A DNA stretch of 36,295 nt from an uncultured Clostridia bacterium (lineage in GTDB: Bacteria; Bacillota; Clostridia; Oscillospirales; Oscillospiraceae), in NCBI GenBank assembly GCA_945948185.1, contig CAMFAL010000012.1:1-36295 (forward strand), written 5' to 3'. Positions within the stretch are counted from its first letter, which is position 1; the number at the start of each line of letters is the position of its first letter. The position numbers and the translations under genes were made by a program. This document shows positions 2,302 through 23,773 of this stretch, piece by piece. Under the pieces are notes generated by a model. The model saw only the letters and a list, made by a program, of their open reading frames with translations, ran no database searches and was not told where the DNA came from.

Positions 2302-3495
2302 ATGAAACGAAACAGCGCCGTTACGGCATCCACGCTGGCCCTTATGGGGCTGGGCTTTGCCCTGGGCGCCTGCGAATATGTGGTGGTGGTCATCCTGCCG
2401 GACATCGCGGAGGGCCTGGGAGCCTCTCTGGGGGCCGCCGGGAAGCTGGTGGGGGTCTTTGCCGCCGGGTACGCCATCGGCACCCCCGTTGTCACGGCTG
2501 CCACGGGGCGGCTGCCACGGTTCCGGCTGTTGATGACCCTGCTGGGGCTGTTCATCGCCGTCAACGCCGTCAGCATGCTGGCCCCCGGCCTGGGGGTGCT
2601 GTATGTCTCCCGGGCCCTGGCGGCGGTGCTGACCGGCACCCTGACGGCGGTGGCCTTCCTGTTTGTCCAGGAGGTGGCTCCCCCGGAGCACACCGCCCGG
2701 GCAATCGCCATGGTGTACACCGGCATGTCCCTGGCCACGGTGGTGGGGAACCCCCTGAACAAGACCCTCAGCGCCGCCTTCGGCTGGCGGGCGCCCTTTG
2801 CGGTAATCCTCATCGCGGGTGTCATTCTGCTGCCGGTGCTGGCCCGGGTTCTGCCCCACACCGGCGCCGTGGAGGGCGCCCAGACCGGCTTCTGCCGCCA
2901 GTTCACGGTGCTGCGGGACCCCCGCTATTCCCTGTGCGTGCTCATGACCATCTGCTGCTACGCCGCCACCTACGTGGTCTACACCTATGTCACCCCCATC
3001 CTGACGGAGGTGCTGGGGGTGGGGGAGACCCTCATCAGCCCCCTGCTGATGGCCGTGGGCGTCTGCTGCATGTGCAGCAACCTGCTGGCGGGCTGGCTGG
3101 GCACCCGGGGCGACGTGAAGCGGACGCCGGTGGTGCTGGCCCTCCAGACCGGGCTGTTCCTGGCCATGCCGCTGCTGCTGGGCAGCCGCTGGACGGGCTT
3201 GCCGGCGGTGTTCGCCATGTGCCTGCTGATGTATCTGCTGAGCACCCCGGTCCAGTACCACGCCTCCGCCCTGGCGGAGACGGAGCACCCCTATGCCGTC
3301 AGCCTCTGCGCGTCGACCCTGTCCGTGGCGGGCAACATCGGCATTGCACTGGGGTCCTTCGCCAGCAGCGGCCTCCAGGAGGTTCTGGGCCTGCGGCCCC
3401 TGGGCTTTCCGGCGGCGGCCTTCGCCCTGGCGGCGCTGGTGTTGAACCTGGCGCTGGCGGCTGCGATGAAAAAAGCGCCCCGGAAGGGCGTGTAG
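2302..3495 (+). CDS. MFS transporter, AraJ/DHA1-type efflux permease
   Basis: This is a 397-residue inner-membrane protein with about 12 hydrophobic segments spread over its length, the size and pattern of DHA1 drug or sugar efflux permeases. Near the N-terminus, GVFAAGYAIGTPVVTAATGR matches the loop between helices 2 and 3 of this family, where a basic residue ends the loop. The start ATG at 2302 follows AGGAAG with a spacer of roughly 10 nt. An upstream in-frame start (2266) lacks a better ribosome site. The gene sits just after the LacI-type regulator and may be controlled by it. The substrate cannot be read from the sequence. Confidence 0.85.
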   Translation: MKRNSAVTASTLALMGLGFALGACEYVVVVILPDIAEGLGASLGAAGKLVGVFAAGYAIGTPVVTAATGRLPRFRLLMTLLGLFIAVNAVSMLAPGLGVLYVSRALAAVLTGTLTAVAFLFVQEVAPPEHTARAIAMVYTGMSLATVVGNPLNKTLSAAFGWRAPFAVILIAGVILLPVLARVLPHTGAVEGAQTGFCRQFTVLRDPRYSLCVLMTICCYAATYVVYTYVTPILTEVLGVGETLISPLLMAVGVCCMCSNLLAGWLGTRGDVKRTPVVLALQTGLFLAMPLLLGSRWTGLPAVFAMCLLMYLLSTPVQYHASALAETEHPYAVSLCASTLSVAGNIGIALGSFASSGLQEVLGLRPLGFPAAAFALAALVLNLALAAAMKKAPRKGV

Positions 3496-3549
3496 GGGCG
3501 GATACCAACCGCCCGCTGGGGTCCCGCCCGCGGGAGCGCGGGAATTGCG
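3496..3549. repeat. GC-rich hairpins between the MFS stop and repeat copy A
   Basis: GGGCGG/CCGCCC around ATACCAA forms a stem-loop directly after the MFS stop codon, and further CCCGC/GCGGG pairings follow. A related GC-rich tail with a shared GGGGCGCAATTCCCGCGC string follows repeat copy D, so this may be a variable outer part of that repeat. No gene is supported. Confidence 0.4.
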
Positions 3550-3993
3550 CCCCCCATTCTTTTTCGGCTTGCCGAAAAAGAACCCTCCAGAGGGGCTTCT
3601 CTTGCCGCTACGCGGCAATTCACCTTCTGCGCCGTGCACGGTGGAAGAAAAAGGCGCTTGGGCGGATCAACTTGACACCTTCGTGTCAAGTTGACCGCAA
3701 TACGGGAGTCGCCGTAGCCGGTGCGGTACCGACTTGCGGGCTTGTACCGGGTGCGCCACACCCCGGAAAAACAGAGAAGTGCTTCCCCGCGTTTGGGGGC
3801 GTGTGTGCGGCTTTCGCCCGCCCCGGGGGGGGAATCCAAAGGGGAGGGGCCGCAGCCCCCCCCCTTTTTGTGTCGTTAGGGGGTGTGGGGGCGAATCGAA
3901 ACGCCCCCACGTTTCTGGAAGGGGGTCAAGGGGGAGGTGTCTTTGCGCCAAAGACATCTCCCCCCTGGTTCCCCACTCCCCCGGCGGGGGAGT
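3550..3993 (-). repeat. Modular palindromic repeat, copy A (type II 3' module)
   Basis: This is a 444-bp element in reverse orientation. In element order, from high to low coordinates, it has a leading hairpin ACTCCCC/GGGGAGT (3993-3975), the conserved 35-nt hairpin (3930-3964), a GTGGGGGCG/CGCCCCCAC hairpin, a long GC palindrome (about 3838-3869), and the 12-bp dyad TCAACTTGACAC/GTGTCAAGTTGA (3667-3694). The 3' module includes TTGCCGC/GCGGCAA and a TTCTTTTTCGGC hairpin ending in GGGGGG. The 3' module matches copy D and differs from copies B and C by an extra segment of about 45 bp. It fills most of the gap between the MFS gene and gdpP. No reading frame is conserved among copies. Confidence 0.85.
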
Positions 3994-6560: not shown

Positions 6561-7002
6561 CTCTCCCCTTCGGGAGAGACGGGGGGAGGGGGAGATGTCT
6601 TTGGCGCAAAGACACCTCCCCCTGCGACCCCCTCCAGAAACGTGGGGGCGTTTCGATTCCGCCCCCACACCCCCTAACGACACAAAGGGGCGGGGCTGCG
6701 GCCCCTCCCCGTTGGAAACCCCACCCCGGAGGGGTAGCGGCAGCGAAAAGGGGAGCAGGGACCATACGATGACCACCCCGAAAGCCGCACCCAAGCCCCC
6801 AGATGCGGGGAAGCAGTTCTCTGTTTCACCAGGGTATAGCGCACCCGGTACGGGCCTGCAGGTTTGCACCCACCGGCCACGACGACCCCGTGTTTGCGGT
6901 CAACTTGACACAAGTGTGTCAAGTTGATCCGCTTAGCGCCTTTTCCTTTGGACCGTGAACGGCCCGTTTCCTTTTCGGCGCTGACGAAAAGGAAATGGGG
7001 GG
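6561..7002 (+). repeat. Modular palindromic repeat, copy B (type I 3' module)
   Basis: This is a 442-bp element between rplI and dnaB. The leading hairpin is CTCTCCC/GGGAGAG (6561-6578), the 35-nt conserved hairpin is 6588-6622, and the GTGGGGGCG/CGCCCCCAC hairpin is 6642-6668. A partly decayed GC palindrome lies near 6684-6713. The dyad TCAACTTGACAC-AAGT-GTGTCAAGTTGA is 6900-6927. The 3' module is a TTTCCTTTTCG/CGAAAAGGAAA hairpin (6967-6995) ending in GGGGGG. No U-tract follows any hairpin, so an rplI transcript could run through into dnaB. The dnaB ribosome site lies 30 bp beyond the element. Confidence 0.88.
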
Positions 7003-7045
7003 TTCAGTATCCCCGCCCCCTGTCAGGGGGCAAAGGAGGACCACC

Positions 7046-9743: not shown

Positions 9744-10287
9744 GATGGAGCAAGATATCCTGAAGGTTCTGGTGACCGAGGAGGAACTGAAGGCCCGTAT
9801 CCAGGAGATGGGCGACGAGCTGTATGACAGATTCCAGGGCAAGGACCCCCTGTTCCTCAGCGTGCTGAAGGGTTCCTTCGTGTTTATGGCGGACCTGGTC
9901 AGGGCCTGCCAGCTCAAGAGCGACGTGGAGTTCATCGCCGTCAGCTCCTATGAGAACGCCACCGCGTCCTCCGGCCGGGTGAAGATCAACCACGACATCC
10001 AGCAGGACATCACCGGCCGCCACCTGGTCATTGTGGAGGACATCCTGGACTCCGGCAACACCCTGGCCTTTTTGAAGGAGTACTTCATGACCAAGGGCGC
10101 CGCGTCCATCACCATCGTCACCCTGCTGGATAAGCCCTCCCGCCGGGAGAAGGCCATTACCGCCGACCTGGCCGGCTTCGTGGTGCCCAACGAGTTCGTA
10201 GTGGGCTACGGCCTGGATTACTGCCAGCAGTACCGCAACATGCCCTACATCGGCGTGCTGAAGCCCGAGGTCTACGAGGGAAAGTAA
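9733..10287 (+). CDS. hpt: Hypoxanthine phosphoribosyltransferase
   Basis: This purine-salvage enzyme makes IMP or GMP from hypoxanthine or guanine and PRPP. It has 184 residues, normal for the family. The PRPP-binding loop is VIVEDILDSGNTL (about residues 98-110), the pyrophosphate loop is LKGSFVFMADL, and the base-binding tail includes FVVPNEFVVGYGLDY. The ATG follows GAGGAG and overlaps the tilS end. The last 28 codons and the stop are part of an exact 85-bp sequence that recurs 230 bp downstream. The gene itself is intact. Confidence 0.95.
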   Translation: MRSEMEQDILKVLVTEEELKARIQEMGDELYDRFQGKDPLFLSVLKGSFVFMADLVRACQLKSDVEFIAVSSYENATASSGRVKINHDIQQDITGRHLVIVEDILDSGNTLAFLKEYFMTKGAASITIVTLLDKPSRREKAITADLAGFVVPNEFVVGYGLDYCQQYRNMPYIGVLKPEVYEGK

Positions 10288-10288
10288 G
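10204..10288 (+). repeat. 85-bp direct repeat, copy 1 (hpt 3' end)
   Basis: This segment covers the final 28 codons of hpt plus stop. It recurs without a single difference at 10434-10518. The bases flanking both ends differ between the copies, so the match is exactly 85 bp. Confidence 0.95.
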
Positions 10289-10433: not shown

Positions 10434-10518
10434 GGCTACGGCCTGGATTACTGCCAGCAGTACCGCAACATGCCCTACATCGGCGTGCTGAAGCCCGAGG
10501 TCTACGAGGGAAAGTAAG
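10434..10518 (+). repeat. hpt: 85-bp direct repeat, copy 2 (detached hpt 3' end)
   Basis: This is an exact second copy of the hpt 3' end, in a frame unconnected to hpt and with no start of its own. It lies 41 bp upstream of the ftsH start codon. Only the natural short hpt-ftsH spacer follows it, which suggests the 145-bp insert plus one copy was added to an originally compact junction. Confidence 0.95.
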
Positions 10519-18421: not shown

Positions 18422-18865
18422 CGCCCCTGCCGGGGCGCACGGGGGAAAGGGGGAGATGTCTTTGGCGCAAAGACACCTCCTCCTGCGACCCCCTCCAGAA
18501 ACGTGGGGGCGTTTCGATTTCGCCCCACACCCCCTAACGACACAAAGGGGAGAGGCCGCGGCCCCTCCCCTTTGGATTTCCCTCCCGGGGACGGGGCAGC
18601 GGCAGCGGAAAGAGAGGCTGATCTATTCGATAACCACCTCGAAAGCCGCACCTGCGCCATCAAATGCGGGGAAGCATTTCTCTGTTTCATCAGAGTATAG
18701 CGCACCCGGTACAAGCCTGCAAGTCTGTACCGCACCGGCCACGGCGACCCCCGTATAGCGGTCAACTTGACACAAGTGTGTCAAGTTGATCCGCCCCAGC
18801 GCCTTTTCCTTTGGACCGTGAACGGCCCGTTTCCTTTTCGACGGCGCCGAAAAGGAAATGGGGGG
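18422..18865 (+). repeat. Modular palindromic repeat, copy C (type I 3' module)
   Basis: This is a 444-bp element directly after the terminator. The leading hairpin is CGCCCC/GGGGCG (18422-18437), the 35-nt hairpin is 18449-18483, and the near-perfect 30-bp GC palindrome is 18544-18573. The dyad with loop AAGT is 18762-18789. The TTTCCTTTTCG/CGAAAAGGAAA hairpin (18830-18858) ends in GGGGGG. A single C is missing from the CGCCCCCAC arm compared with copies B and D, which breaks any shared reading frame. It lies in the 5' flank of arcA. Confidence 0.88.
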
Positions 18866-19012
18866 TTCAGCCCTCGCGCGCCGCGGCAGCGGTGCCTTCC
18901 CACTGCGCTCCCCGGAGGGAAAGCAAATTTTCCATTTCCGTGTATGAAAATCCAAAATCCAGAGACCCTATGCAGGAACCCATTTGAAAGCCTGAAAAGG
19001 AGTGATCTGATT
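18866..19012. other. arcA upstream region
   Basis: These 147 bp follow repeat copy C and contain no convincing sigma-A hexamer pair. An in-frame ATG at 18944 lacks a ribosome site within range. The AAAAGGAG at 18995-19002 decides the arcA start at 19013. The arcA promoter may lie inside or upstream of repeat copy C. Confidence 0.4.
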
Positions 19013-20240: not shown

Positions 20241-20347
20241 CCGGTGACCCCACCGGAACGGGGGAGGGGGACATTTTTCTTTTGAAAAGAGAAGTGTCCC
20301 CCCACGCCCCCCAAAGAGAAACCCGGGAGGATTTCGATTTCAACACC
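20241..20347 (+). repeat. Diverged fifth copy of the 5' part of the modular repeat (copy E)
   Basis: It starts 4 nt after the arcA stop with the leading hairpin CCGGTG/CACCGG (20241-20256). GGGGGAGGGGG follows, then a long hairpin GGGGGACA/TGTCCCCC (20266-20302) whose inner U/A-rich arms pair with wobbles, then a C-run, GAGAAAC, a G-rich arm and TTTCGATTTC. The order and spacing match the first quarter of copies A-D, but most bases of the hairpin arms differ. The rest of the element is absent and two other stem-loops take its place. Confidence 0.6.
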
Positions 20348-20350
20348 GTC

Positions 20351-20448
20351 GCGGCATTGCGATTCCCGGCCCCTTCGGGGCCGCCAATCGCGCCGCTTCC
20401 TCGAAACAGACTCGCTTCATCCGCCACTGGCGGCGCTTCGCCTGTTTC
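20351..20448 (+). other. Two stem-loops between arcA and arcB
   Basis: The first (20351-20396) has CGGCCCC/GGGGCCG at its tip, GCGATT/AATCGC below it and GCGGC/GCCGC at the base. The second (20403-20448) has outer arms GAAACAG/CTGTTTC and an inner CCGCC/GGCGG. Neither is followed by a U-tract. They may act as RNA-processing or stability elements within the arc transcript. Confidence 0.5.
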
Positions 20449-20507
20449 ACCCGTCCCCCGGCAGGAGGAAAAGATAATATACTTCATATTGAAAAGGAGA
20501 AATCACC

Positions 20508-21521: not shown

Positions 21522-22910
21522 TTGGAAAAGAAATCATTCCACATGCCCACGGCCTACACCATCCTGTTCCTGCTGATCATCCTGGTGGCCATTGCCACCT
21601 GGCTGATCCCGGCGGGGGCCTACGACTACGTGGACGGAGTCCCGGTGGCGGGCAGCTACCACCTGACGGAGGCCAATCCCCAGGGCGTGGGGGCGGTGCT
21701 GAAGGCGGCCTTTTCCGGCTTCTTCGATGCCGTGGATGTCTGCGTGTTCATCCTGATGGTGGGCGGCTTTCTGGGCGTGGTCATGAAAACCGGCGCCGTG
21801 GACGCCGGCGTGGCCCACACCATCCGGCTTCTGGGCGGCCGGGAAAAGTGGCTCATCCCCATCCTCATGGTGCTCTTCGGCCTGGGCGGCACCACCTACG
21901 GCATGTGGGAGGAGACCATGGCCTTCTACCCCCTGCTGCTGCCGGTGTTTCTGGCGGCGGGCTATGACGCGGTGGTGGGTATCTCCGTGATCCTGCTGGG
22001 CGCCGGGGCCGGCGTCATCAGCTCCACGGTGAACCCCTTCGCCACCGGCATCGCCGCGGGCTTTGCCGGGGTGTCCCTGGGGGAGGGACTCCTGCTGCGC
22101 GCCATCCAGTGGGTGGTGTTCGAGGGAGCGGCCATCTGGTTCGTCATGGCCTACGCGGCGAAGGTGAAGAAGAATCCCTCCAGGTCCGTGGTGGGCGTGG
22201 GCGCCGGAAAAATCCACGTCAGCATGGAGGAGGGGGTCCCCTTCACCGCCCGGCGGAAGGCCATCATGGCGGTGTTTACGTTGGTGTTCCTCATCATGAT
22301 CTACGGCGTCATCCCCTTTGACGAGATGGGCCTGCCTCTGCCTGCCTTAGGCTGGTGGTTCCCGGAGCTCTCCGCACTGTTCCTGGTGGGCGGCATCGTG
22401 GTGGGCCTTATGGACCGCATGAGCGAGGCGGAGATCGCGGACACCTTTGTGGCGGGCTGCGCGGACCTGTTGGGGGTAGCCTTCATCATCGGCATCAGCC
22501 GGGGCATTACCGTTCTGATGAACGACGGCGGTATCACCGACACCGTCCTCCACTGGGGCGAGCAGGCCCTGGCAGGGGCGGGGCCCGTCAGCTTCGTGCT
22601 GCTGGTGTATCTCATCTACCTGCCCCTGACCATCCTGATCCCCTCCTCCTCGGGCCTTGCCACCCTGTCCATCCCCATCATCGCGCCCCTGGGCCGGTTC
22701 GCGGGGGTGGGAGGCGACTTGGTGGTGACGGCCTTCCAGTCGGCGTCCGGCCTGGTGAACATCATCACCCCCACGGCGGCGGTGGTCATGGGCGCACTGG
22801 CCCTGGGGCATGTGCCCTACGACCGCTGGGTCAAATATGTATGGAAACTGATATTGTATTTCCTTCTGCTGACCATGGCGTTTTTGGTGATCGGCGCCAT
22901 CATGGCGTGA
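21522..22910 (+). CDS. arcD: YfcC/ArcD-type membrane carrier, probable arginine-ornithine exchanger
   Basis: This is a 462-residue membrane protein with about 11-12 hydrophobic segments, of the DcuC/ArcD/YfcC superfamily. It has PTAYTILFLLIILVAIATW and IPAGAYDYVDG near the start, GGTTYGMWEETMAFYPLLLP in the middle, and the conserved LTILIPSSSGLATLSIPII and SASGLVNIITPTAAVVMGAL later. The start is TTG 21522 behind a G-rich ribosome site; ATG 21543 is an alternative. The gene lies 15 bp after arcB, so export of ornithine in exchange for arginine is the likely job. The family also contains dicarboxylate-type members, so the substrate is inferred from context. Confidence 0.82.
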   Translation: MEKKSFHMPTAYTILFLLIILVAIATWLIPAGAYDYVDGVPVAGSYHLTEANPQGVGAVLKAAFSGFFDAVDVCVFILMVGGFLGVVMKTGAVDAGVAHTIRLLGGREKWLIPILMVLFGLGGTTYGMWEETMAFYPLLLPVFLAAGYDAVVGISVILLGAGAGVISSTVNPFATGIAAGFAGVSLGEGLLLRAIQWVVFEGAAIWFVMAYAAKVKKNPSRSVVGVGAGKIHVSMEEGVPFTARRKAIMAVFTLVFLIMIYGVIPFDEMGLPLPALGWWFPELSALFLVGGIVVGLMDRMSEAEIADTFVAGCADLLGVAFIIGISRGITVLMNDGGITDTVLHWGEQALAGAGPVSFVLLVYLIYLPLTILIPSSSGLATLSIPIIAPLGRFAGVGGDLVVTAFQSASGLVNIITPTAAVVMGALALGHVPYDRWVKYVWKLILYFLLLTMAFLVIGAIMA

Positions 22911-22917
22911 AAAAGGC

Positions 22918-23374
22918 GCCCCCTTTCCAGGGGGCTTGGGGAAAGGGGGAGATGTCTTTGGCGCAAAGACACCTCCCCCTTAAACCCCCTCCAGAAATGT
23001 GGGGGCGTTTCGATTTCGCCCCCACACCCCCTAACGACACAAAGGGGAAGGGCCGCGGCCCCTCCCCTTTGGATTTCCCACCCCGGAGACGGTTGGGGTG
23101 GCCATCCCGAAAGCCGCTCCCATACCCCAAATGCGGGGAAATACTTCTCTGTTTTGCCGGGGGATAGCGCACCCGGTACGGGGCTGCAAGTTTGCACCGC
23201 ACCGGCCACGACGACTCCCGTTTTGCGGTCAACTTGACACATCTGTGTCAAGTTGATCCGCCCAAGCGCCTTTTTCTTCCACCGTGCACGGCGCAGAAGG
23301 TGAATTGCCGCGTAGCGGCAAGAGAAGCCCCTCTGGAGGGTTCTTTTTCGGCAAGACGAGAAAGAATGGGGGGG
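22918..23374 (+). repeat. Modular palindromic repeat, copy D (type II 3' module)
   Basis: This is a 457-bp element beginning 7 nt after the arcD stop. The leading hairpin is GCCCCCT/AGGGGGC (22918-22935), the 35-nt hairpin is 22945-22979, and the 30-bp GC palindrome with one mismatch is 23041-23070. The dyad with loop ATCT is 23229-23256. The 3' module has TTGCCGC/GCGGCAA and a TTCTTTTTCGGC hairpin (partly decayed on the right) ending in GGGGGGG. The 3' module agrees with copy A. A convergent minus-strand operon ends about 100 bp further on. Confidence 0.88.
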
Positions 23375-23473: not shown

Positions 23474-23773
23474 TTATCTCAGCTTTTCCTCATAGTCCCG
23501 CAGGGTCCCCTCCGTCATCAGCGACAGCTTGTGCAGCCGCTCATTCACCATGTCCCACATGCACATGGGCAGGTGGTCCCGGTGGCCCCGGTGCAGCGTC
23601 ACGCACTCAAAGCAGTTGCCGTGATGGGGGCAGGCCTCTTTGCAGGGGCAGTGGTCGCCGCTCTCCCGCACCTGCTTCAGAAATTCCTTCTTGATGGCCA
23701 TGGCCTCCTCGTGGCGGCCCTCCCGGTCCAGGTCGTTCTGCCGGATGGCCAGCTCGTTGCCGTCGATTTTCAT
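23474..23773 (-). CDS. Small Cys/His-rich protein (DUF6485-like)
   Basis: This is a 99-residue soluble protein. The middle carries a dense metal-ligand pattern, CPCKEACPHHGNCFECV, then HRGHRDHLPMC. This resembles the short Cys-rich family with a C-P-x-H-G-x-C-x-E-C core (DUF6485-like, from memory). It probably binds zinc or an Fe-S centre; the function is unknown. The N-terminus is charged and helical. Its start overlaps the MBL-fold gene by 4 bp, and it is the last gene of the MerR-led operon. Confidence 0.75.
   Translation of the reverse strand: MKIDGNELAIRQNDLDREGRHEEAMAIKKEFLKQVRESGDHCPCKEACPHHGNCFECVTLHRGHRDHLPMCMWDMVNERLHKLSLMTEGTLRDYEEKLR

Follow-up and report, generated by a model that had tools for sequence, protein, structure and literature searches.

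Modular intergenic elements with inverted hairpin ends, probably mobile, in the Oscillibacter/Dysosmobacter group

Introduction

The question raised by this locus is what kind of entity is repeated in it. A sequence-only reading of the window (the whole stretch of DNA that was analysed, 36,295 nucleotides from an uncultured member of the Oscillospiraceae) had described four copies of an intergenic palindromic repeat, and had suggested that this undescribed family is either a mobile element of the MITE or REP type or a transcribed structured RNA. We have followed the repeat through the genus and the family, and analysed its architecture, its insertion sites, its hairpins and the genes associated with it.

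The copies in the window

BLASTN and alignment confirm the four homologous copies, here called A to D, each of about 440–460 nt. With copy B as query, copy C is matched at E = 5.7e-143, copy D at 4.1e-98 and copy A (reversed) at 4.8e-77. The features of the window are listed below.

3546–3993, minus strand: copy A; tail at 3546–3654, left-arm end near 3993
3584–3628, minus strand: 45-nt nested insertion in the tail of copy A, the same as in copy D
6561–7006, plus strand: copy B, between genes read as rplI (ends 6555) and dnaB (starts 7046)
6561–6578, plus strand: outer left hairpin of copy B, CTCTCCC..GGGAGAG, read from the sequence
6588–6622, plus strand: 35-nt left terminal hairpin of copy B, GGGGGAGATGTC...ACACCTCCCCC, a nearly invariant alignment block
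6642–6668, plus strand: GTGGGGGCG/CGCCCCCAC hairpin of copy B, from sequence and four-way alignment
6687–6710, plus strand: GC palindrome of copy B, GGGGCGGGGCTGCGGCCCCTCCCC, from sequence and four-way alignment
6734–6759, plus strand: centre motif of copy B, TAGCGGCAGCGAAAAGGGGAGCAGG; similar motifs seen by eye at the element centres of relatives
6762–7006, plus strand: conserved right arm of copy B (core, exchangeable hairpin, tail), from iterated nhmmer
6896–6932, plus strand: exchangeable hairpin of copy B, GCGGTCAACTTGACAC..GTGTCAAGTTGATCCGC; differing hairpins at the same place in other elements
6940–7006, plus strand: tail of copy B, a terminal hairpin module mismatched internally at GG/GG; paired elements have it as their inverted end
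18422–18869, plus strand: copy C, directly 3' of a hairpin and T run that by eye resemble a terminator
about 20255–20340, plus strand: fifth copy, truncated, left arm only; variant resembling that of locus L024
20338–20455, plus strand: separate palindromic repeat of about 118 nt, adjoining the fifth copy
22918–23374, plus strand: copy D, between a plus-strand gene ending at 22910 and a convergent gene ending at 23474
23295–23339, plus strand: 45-nt nested insertion in the tail of copy D, from the alignment

The series of hairpins and the core GCGCACCCGGTAC that had been noted from the sequence appear as invariant columns of the four-way alignment, which contains long invariant blocks. The ends required slight correction: the tail module runs a few bases further than had been thought, to 7006 in B and to 18869 in C, and the arm of D ends at about 23373. 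All four copies lie between genes called by a purpose-made codon-usage gene finder, as had been claimed (the gene names rplI, dnaB and argF were assigned by reading translations). The first hairpins of B, C and D likewise follow the upstream stop codon closely, by about 6, 38 and 8 nt respectively, while A is reversed. No transposase was seen in the window copies, again in agreement with the earlier description.

In each window copy the conserved arm forms one side only, the other being a different left arm; the two ends are of different type. The 45-nt nested insertion is common to A and D and missing in B and C, which implies that copying of A, of D or of a parent shared by both came after the insertion. 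The repeat unit first recognised is real, but it is only one variant of a larger modular element, described below.

Other repeats were observed in the window. The palindromic repeat of about 118 nt at 20338–20455 (AACACCGTCGCGGCATTGCG...) has six matching pieces in its own genome and many in the seven relatives searched, and is sometimes nested in elements, as in the rplI-dnaB inserts of relatives G059, G029 and G024. A palindrome at 3492–3515 (GTAGGGGCGG...CCGCCC) adjoins copy A, with similar ones in the rplI-dnaB inserts of G018 and G013. There is also an exact 85-nt duplication (10204–10288 and 10434–10518) over the 3' end of a gene ending at 10287.

Architecture of the two-armed element

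Across 171 loci and the window, the closest full-length tail pairs all point outward (60/60, orientation '-+') and lie 300–1578 nt apart; a few of these loci show the same place twice, and partial and antisense matches were filtered out. The tail is therefore an inverted end, and the paired elements have terminal inverted repeats like those of MITEs (60/60 tail pairs inverted). Iterated nhmmer traced the homology along an arm of about 246 nt, and 156 distinct sequences cover more than three quarters of the model. Alignment of 46 of these 156 arms gave the conserved stretches TGCGGG, GCGCACCCGG, GCACCG and CCCCCG, and the interval between core and tail is in these arms a hairpin whose sequence varies by element. 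In the two-armed elements at L042 and L043, which carry XRE genes, the arms are homologous to the window arm.

Additional hairpins are found outside the tails. The two outer flanks of one element are more alike than in random pairings, with a mean score of 14.1 against 7.0 (sd 10.4) and 15 of 75 above the random 95th percentile. For the inner arms of one element the mean is 26.9 against 13.2 (sd 26.1), with 5 of 73 above the random 95th percentile, and the two arms of one element are thus not clearly more alike than arms across elements. At L025 (1080–1230), an outer hairpin unit, CGCGCCACGGCGCGGGACGGAG, is seen in tandem copies adjoining the tail.

We picture a two-tailed element as two inverted arms of about 250 nt each. 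Each arm would consist of a conserved core, an exchangeable hairpin and the terminal hairpin (the tail, with its GG/GG mismatch), followed by the outer hairpins. Copies A–D would then be payload-free forms with an alternative left arm.

Distribution

BLASTN with copy B in its own genome gave a total of 22 matching pieces, further places on other contigs included; several pieces are self-complementary or split. For genome counts a covariance model of the tail was used, with 84 candidates scored per genome. Of the 61 genomes sampled in the genus, 47 have the tail module. The expectation of hundreds of copies per genome is not borne out: the own assembly (1.63 Mb, 82% complete) has 11 tail modules and other carriers have 1–71, among them G047 with 71, G020 with 68 and G045 with 57; high numbers may be underestimates given the 84 candidates scored and the many matches at contig ends. 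At family level, a match at E ≤ 1e-5 was found in 8 of 150 sampled genomes and 7 of 106 genera, the own genus counted.

A DNA pattern search found at least 120 stretches. The 80 named matches listed comprise 59 with Oscillibacter or Dysosmobacter in the title, 20 titled Oscillospiraceae bacterium and one titled Clostridia bacterium. The copies are members of an element family of the Oscillibacter/Dysosmobacter group. A plasmid search found no element, and a phage search gave a single weak match, in an unannotated faecal contig. One viral contig has a tail close to its end, with phage-like genes and a frame that by eye resembles an integrase next to it. At L246 (5292–6680), a viral contig ends with an integrase-like gene, again judged by eye, followed by an element centre and tail; this element may lie at a prophage border.

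The family does seem to be undescribed, as had been supposed: an Rfam scan of the window gave no match at gathering scores, and no description of such a repeat family was found in the open-licence PubMed Central literature.

Insertion sites and mobility

For every one of the four window sites, at least two relatives lack the element. The site of copy A is empty in G013 and in G029 (where the gap is about 170 nt), that of copy C in G029 and G042, and that of copy D in G013 and G057. Of 27 measured junctions at the site of copy B, between rplI and dnaB, counting those with both genes found (and thus not L178 and L195, where rplI is missing), 17 are without the element and only 37–130 nt long, the nearest being G042 with 37 nt. 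The remaining 10, the own genome counted, are 244–1042 nt long and hold differing variants. The site of copy D is occupied in G000, G007 and G029, and sites occupied across several species in this way may reflect old inheritance. At the empty sites found, the relatives are too diverged for a target-site duplication to be defined.

None of 153 elements lies wholly within a called gene (of at least 100 aa), and at L287 one tail reaches into the end of a 253-aa called frame. For the 107 elements with two called neighbours (46 of the 153 were skipped for a missing neighbour), 92 are in co-directional gaps (control 254/360), 8 in convergent gaps (46/360) and 7 in divergent gaps (60/360), with p = 0.007.

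The tails within single genomes differ in how alike they are: among the tails compared, the 10 of G051 fall into two identical classes of 5, 7 of G045 into five classes, and the 10 of G038 are all different. On the basis of these identity classes, the spread seems to be recent in certain genomes but old in others.

The mobility of a MITE- or REP-like element, one of the two original suggestions, is supported by the empty orthologous sites of A–D, by the inverted terminal modules and by the identical tails within one genome. We conclude that the elements are very probably mobile.

Covariation of the hairpins

A covariance model and a covariation analysis, proposed with the original description, show that the tail hairpin covaries. 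In the tail alignment, reduced to 127 distinct rows, pairing holds in 96.7% of cells, changes on both sides are seen at 18 of 21 pairs, and there are 366 double-changed cells against a shuffled mean of 85. The covariation score is 0.388, compared with 0.140 for shuffled alignments and at most 0.106 for slid versions. The alignment has 149 rows fitted to the structure; 18 rows score at or below 34 bits, and 13 of these are the antisense of a tail. Without these 18 weak rows (111 distinct rows), 97.3% of cells are paired and 332 are double-changed, whereas 300 shuffles gave 83 such cells on average and at most 101; double changes then occur in 16 of 21 pairs, where the shuffled mean is 12.9 and the maximum of 16 is also reached by shuffles. 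In the 46 aligned arms RNAalifold predicted a four-pair core helix, TGCG/CGCA, with compensatory changes at two pairs.

The stem changes are mostly from one Watson-Crick pair to another. The hairpins expected of the suggested structured RNA do covary, but such exchanges fit palindromic DNA as well as RNA. The outward strand of the tail folds better than its complement in 133 of 144 sequences. The asymmetry between G-T cells (137, of which 89 are at one position) and A-C cells (74) was considered as a test for RNA and is not decisive; the strand bias comes largely from that one position. A permissive Rfam scan of five loci gave as its only match within an element a sub-threshold serC leader in L029 (22.3 bits against a threshold of 35, E = 0.3); an S10 leader, also in L029, lies outside the element.

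Candidate mobilising enzymes

A form of the element bearing a transposase was not seen in G038, G051 or G045, where outward pairs enclose at most about 1.0 kb, save for one 135-kb pairing in G045; nor was a parent element with a transposase found in these genomes or among the 60 tail pairs, the largest of which has 1578 nt inside. Movement would be in trans, by an enzyme that recognises the terminal hairpins, probably as single-stranded DNA.

RAYT-like genes, whose best NCBIfam match is REP_Tyr_transpos (below its cut-off), are present in 15 of 61 genomes, namely 15 of 47 carriers of the element and none of 14 non-carriers (p = 0.011 for presence and 0.010 for tail number, values that ignore phylogeny). 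Contig C11 of G059 has such a gene at a distance of about 2 kb from an element. The other 32 carriers, including the own (incomplete) genome, G047, G020 and G045, have no RAYT-like gene, and no tail was found within nine RAYT-like stretches of 2.4–2.6 kb. Some of the RAYT-like genes at L313–L321 are broken or in pieces, and several occupy a recurring position between genes read as gyrB/parE and gyrA/parC.

Y1_Tnp genes, a set that includes ordinary IS200 genes and overlaps the RAYT set, occur in 22 of 61 genomes, 21 of them carriers (p = 0.009 for presence, 0.0004 for tail number), and group II intron (GIIM) genes in 7 of 61, all carriers (p = 0.14 and 0.015). Y1_Tnp correlates with tail number better, and GIIM about as well, and the RAYT link is therefore not specific. 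A RAYT-like (HUH tyrosine) transposase is the leading candidate for the mobiliser, although we regard it as a possibility that is more doubtful than not.

REP sequences are short hairpins (20–40 bp) tagged with GTAG or CGTC, whereas the tail is 67 nt long, with GTAG within 12 nt of 0 of 269 tail ends and CGTC within 12 nt of 9 of 269. The heptamer CCCCGTC, which holds the CGTC tag of some REPs, is found in 41 of 269 outer flanks against 9.8 in shuffled ones, and to judge from this the outer hairpins may be CGTC-tagged palindromes. In the outer 110 nt of the 269 tails GTAG is rarer than expected (18 against 59).

Weighing the explanations

The best explanation, and in our judgement a probable one, is a family of mobile, non-autonomous DNA elements with hairpin ends. 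It could be argued instead that the copies are a transcribed structured RNA, either a cis-acting leader or a small RNA, which is multicopy by chance and whose hairpins are selected as RNA. This would account for the strong tail covariation, the long-range core helix of four pairs with compensatory changes at two of them, the 92 of 107 elements in co-directional gaps and the better folding of the outward strand in 133 of 144 tails. However, the window has no Rfam match at gathering scores and the permissive scan only the sub-threshold serC leader, the stem changes are mostly between Watson-Crick pairs with a strand bias due largely to one position, and the presence of the element is patchy. Moreover, the tails of two-tailed elements are inverted, so that a single transcript cannot read both in the same sense. 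An RNA of this kind is in our view improbable.

We give still less credence to two further proposals. One is that these are static, vertically inherited intergenic structures, acting as terminators or insulators and shuffled by recombination. The outer hairpins could indeed stop transcription, all 10 tails of G038 differ, and some sites are occupied in several species with related modules (that of D in G007 and G029, and the site shared by L024 and L145); against this stand the 17 of 27 genomes without an element between rplI and dnaB and the differing variants in the other 10, the two identical classes of 5 tails in G051, and the nested insertion common to A and D. The other, to which we assign much the same low probability, is a strict REPIN/REP system, in which REP doublets are maintained by their own RAYT gene. 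Inverted hairpin pairs that are extragenic and non-autonomous, RAYT-like genes confined to carriers, and the CCCCGTC heptamer in outer flanks would all be expected of it, but the ends and the arms (about 250 nt) greatly exceed REPs in length, the GTAG and CGTC tags are absent or rare at the tail ends, 32 of 47 carriers are without a RAYT-like gene, and the nine RAYT-like stretches are without a tail. The mobile family of non-autonomous elements is therefore the reading that we retain.

Associated XRE and DUF6809-like genes

The association of the family with XRE genes could not be seen by the earlier reader, who had only the window. Beside copies A–D there is no XRE or DUF6809-like gene, and among 8 further places in the own genome an XRE occurs at one, with its 5' end toward the element. 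The models for XRE and for its DUF partner were built from matches near elements, and the background count was made with this XRE model too. In named records (131 elements in 120 loci), paired elements have an XRE inside in 12 of 53 cases and abutting in 14 of 53, giving 26 of 53. For single-tail elements the numbers are 5 of 78 abutting and 18 of 78 on the inward side within 1.3 kb, giving 23 of 78, and 82 elements are without an XRE. The named loci were picked by one tail pattern, and these counts therefore describe that tail type. Abutting XREs have their 3' end toward the element in 17 of 19 cases, and XRE density is 0.145 per kb near tails compared with 0.026 per kb farther away.

A DUF6809-like gene lies within 300 nt of 19 of the 53 XRE matches found within 1.5 kb of a tail, and conversely 19 of 21 DUF-like proteins at elements are at most 170 nt from an XRE. 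In G038 (one contig) and G051 together, where 20 of 23 element places were taken in, an XRE is present at 12 of 20, inside, adjoining or, at L286 and L296, inward within 1 kb; 5 of these 12 also have a DUF6809-like match. At L042, in G055, a gene read as rplI is followed by an element that contains an XRE together with a small divergent gene. At L285 (2637–3877), three tandem XRE genes adjoin one element, and a DUF6809-like gene lies upstream.

Of the 19 aligned members only 4 match the DUF6809 Pfam family at E ≤ 0.01, and in another search the two best were below the Pfam cut-off; these few sub-cut-off matches are the reason for the name 'DUF6809-like'. The Pfam family itself is wider, with an XRE and a tail at 3 of 30 loci fetched with that model. 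PADLOC gave only two weak DrmD model matches for the DUF-like partner, and its structure model is all-helical with a mean pLDDT of 85. The XRE repressor, partly with a divergent DUF6809-like gene, would be a payload or a self-regulator of the element.

Comparison with known elements

Classical MITEs are short and non-autonomous, have inverted ends and insert beside genes. The present elements share these features. A parent insertion sequence was seen neither in G038, G051 and G045 nor among the 60 tail pairs, and the divergence of the empty sites leaves a target-site duplication undefined.

REPINs and REPs, with their RAYT transposases, are non-autonomous, extragenic, inverted pairs of hairpin modules in many copies (PMC3116915). 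The present elements have all of these features, and some carriers have a RAYT-like gene. They differ in their tails of about 67 nt within arms of about 250 nt, in the lack of a GTAG tag at the tail, in the frequent association with XRE and DUF6809-like genes, and in that most carriers have no RAYT-like gene. BOX elements of Streptococcus pneumoniae are modular composite intergenic repeats of 67–637 bp with terminal inverted repeats and secondary structure, regarded as non-autonomous mobile elements (PMC3049150). Compared with that account by description rather than by sequence, the present arms are inverted, the hairpins are exchangeable and regulator genes are associated. The 'TIRYTs/TIRtrons' are long inverted-repeat families linked to tyrosine transposases and spread separately from the transposase (PMC3733652). 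They offer the nearest idea to a RAYT-driven reading of the present elements, except that the nine RAYT-like stretches examined here have no tail.

The elements appear to work most like REPINs and BOX elements, the latter likeness being by description alone. They are assigned to neither, in the case of REPINs because the size and tag of a REP are not found at the tail.

Implications

The XRE association is the most interesting part of the element family. As a speculation that we think rather unlikely, we put forward a new class of selfish DNA, made up of giant elements akin to REPINs. Pairing, and not sequence, would be what is kept in their arms, an enzyme in trans would recognise their hairpins in single-stranded form, and the XRE repressor that they carry, partly with a DUF6809-like partner, would control or protect the element. 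In such selfish DNA the hairpins would be swapped or compensated, so that pairing persists.

If the reading of the copies as a mobile family is right, it would be an abundant mobile element of common gut bacteria, often at assembly breaks, that inserts structured DNA among housekeeping genes, rplI and dnaB for example. It would be a case of a DNA element in which pairing is conserved instead of sequence. It would also spread small XRE and DUF6809-like genes, and would provide a genetic context for the uncharacterised DUF6809-like proteins.
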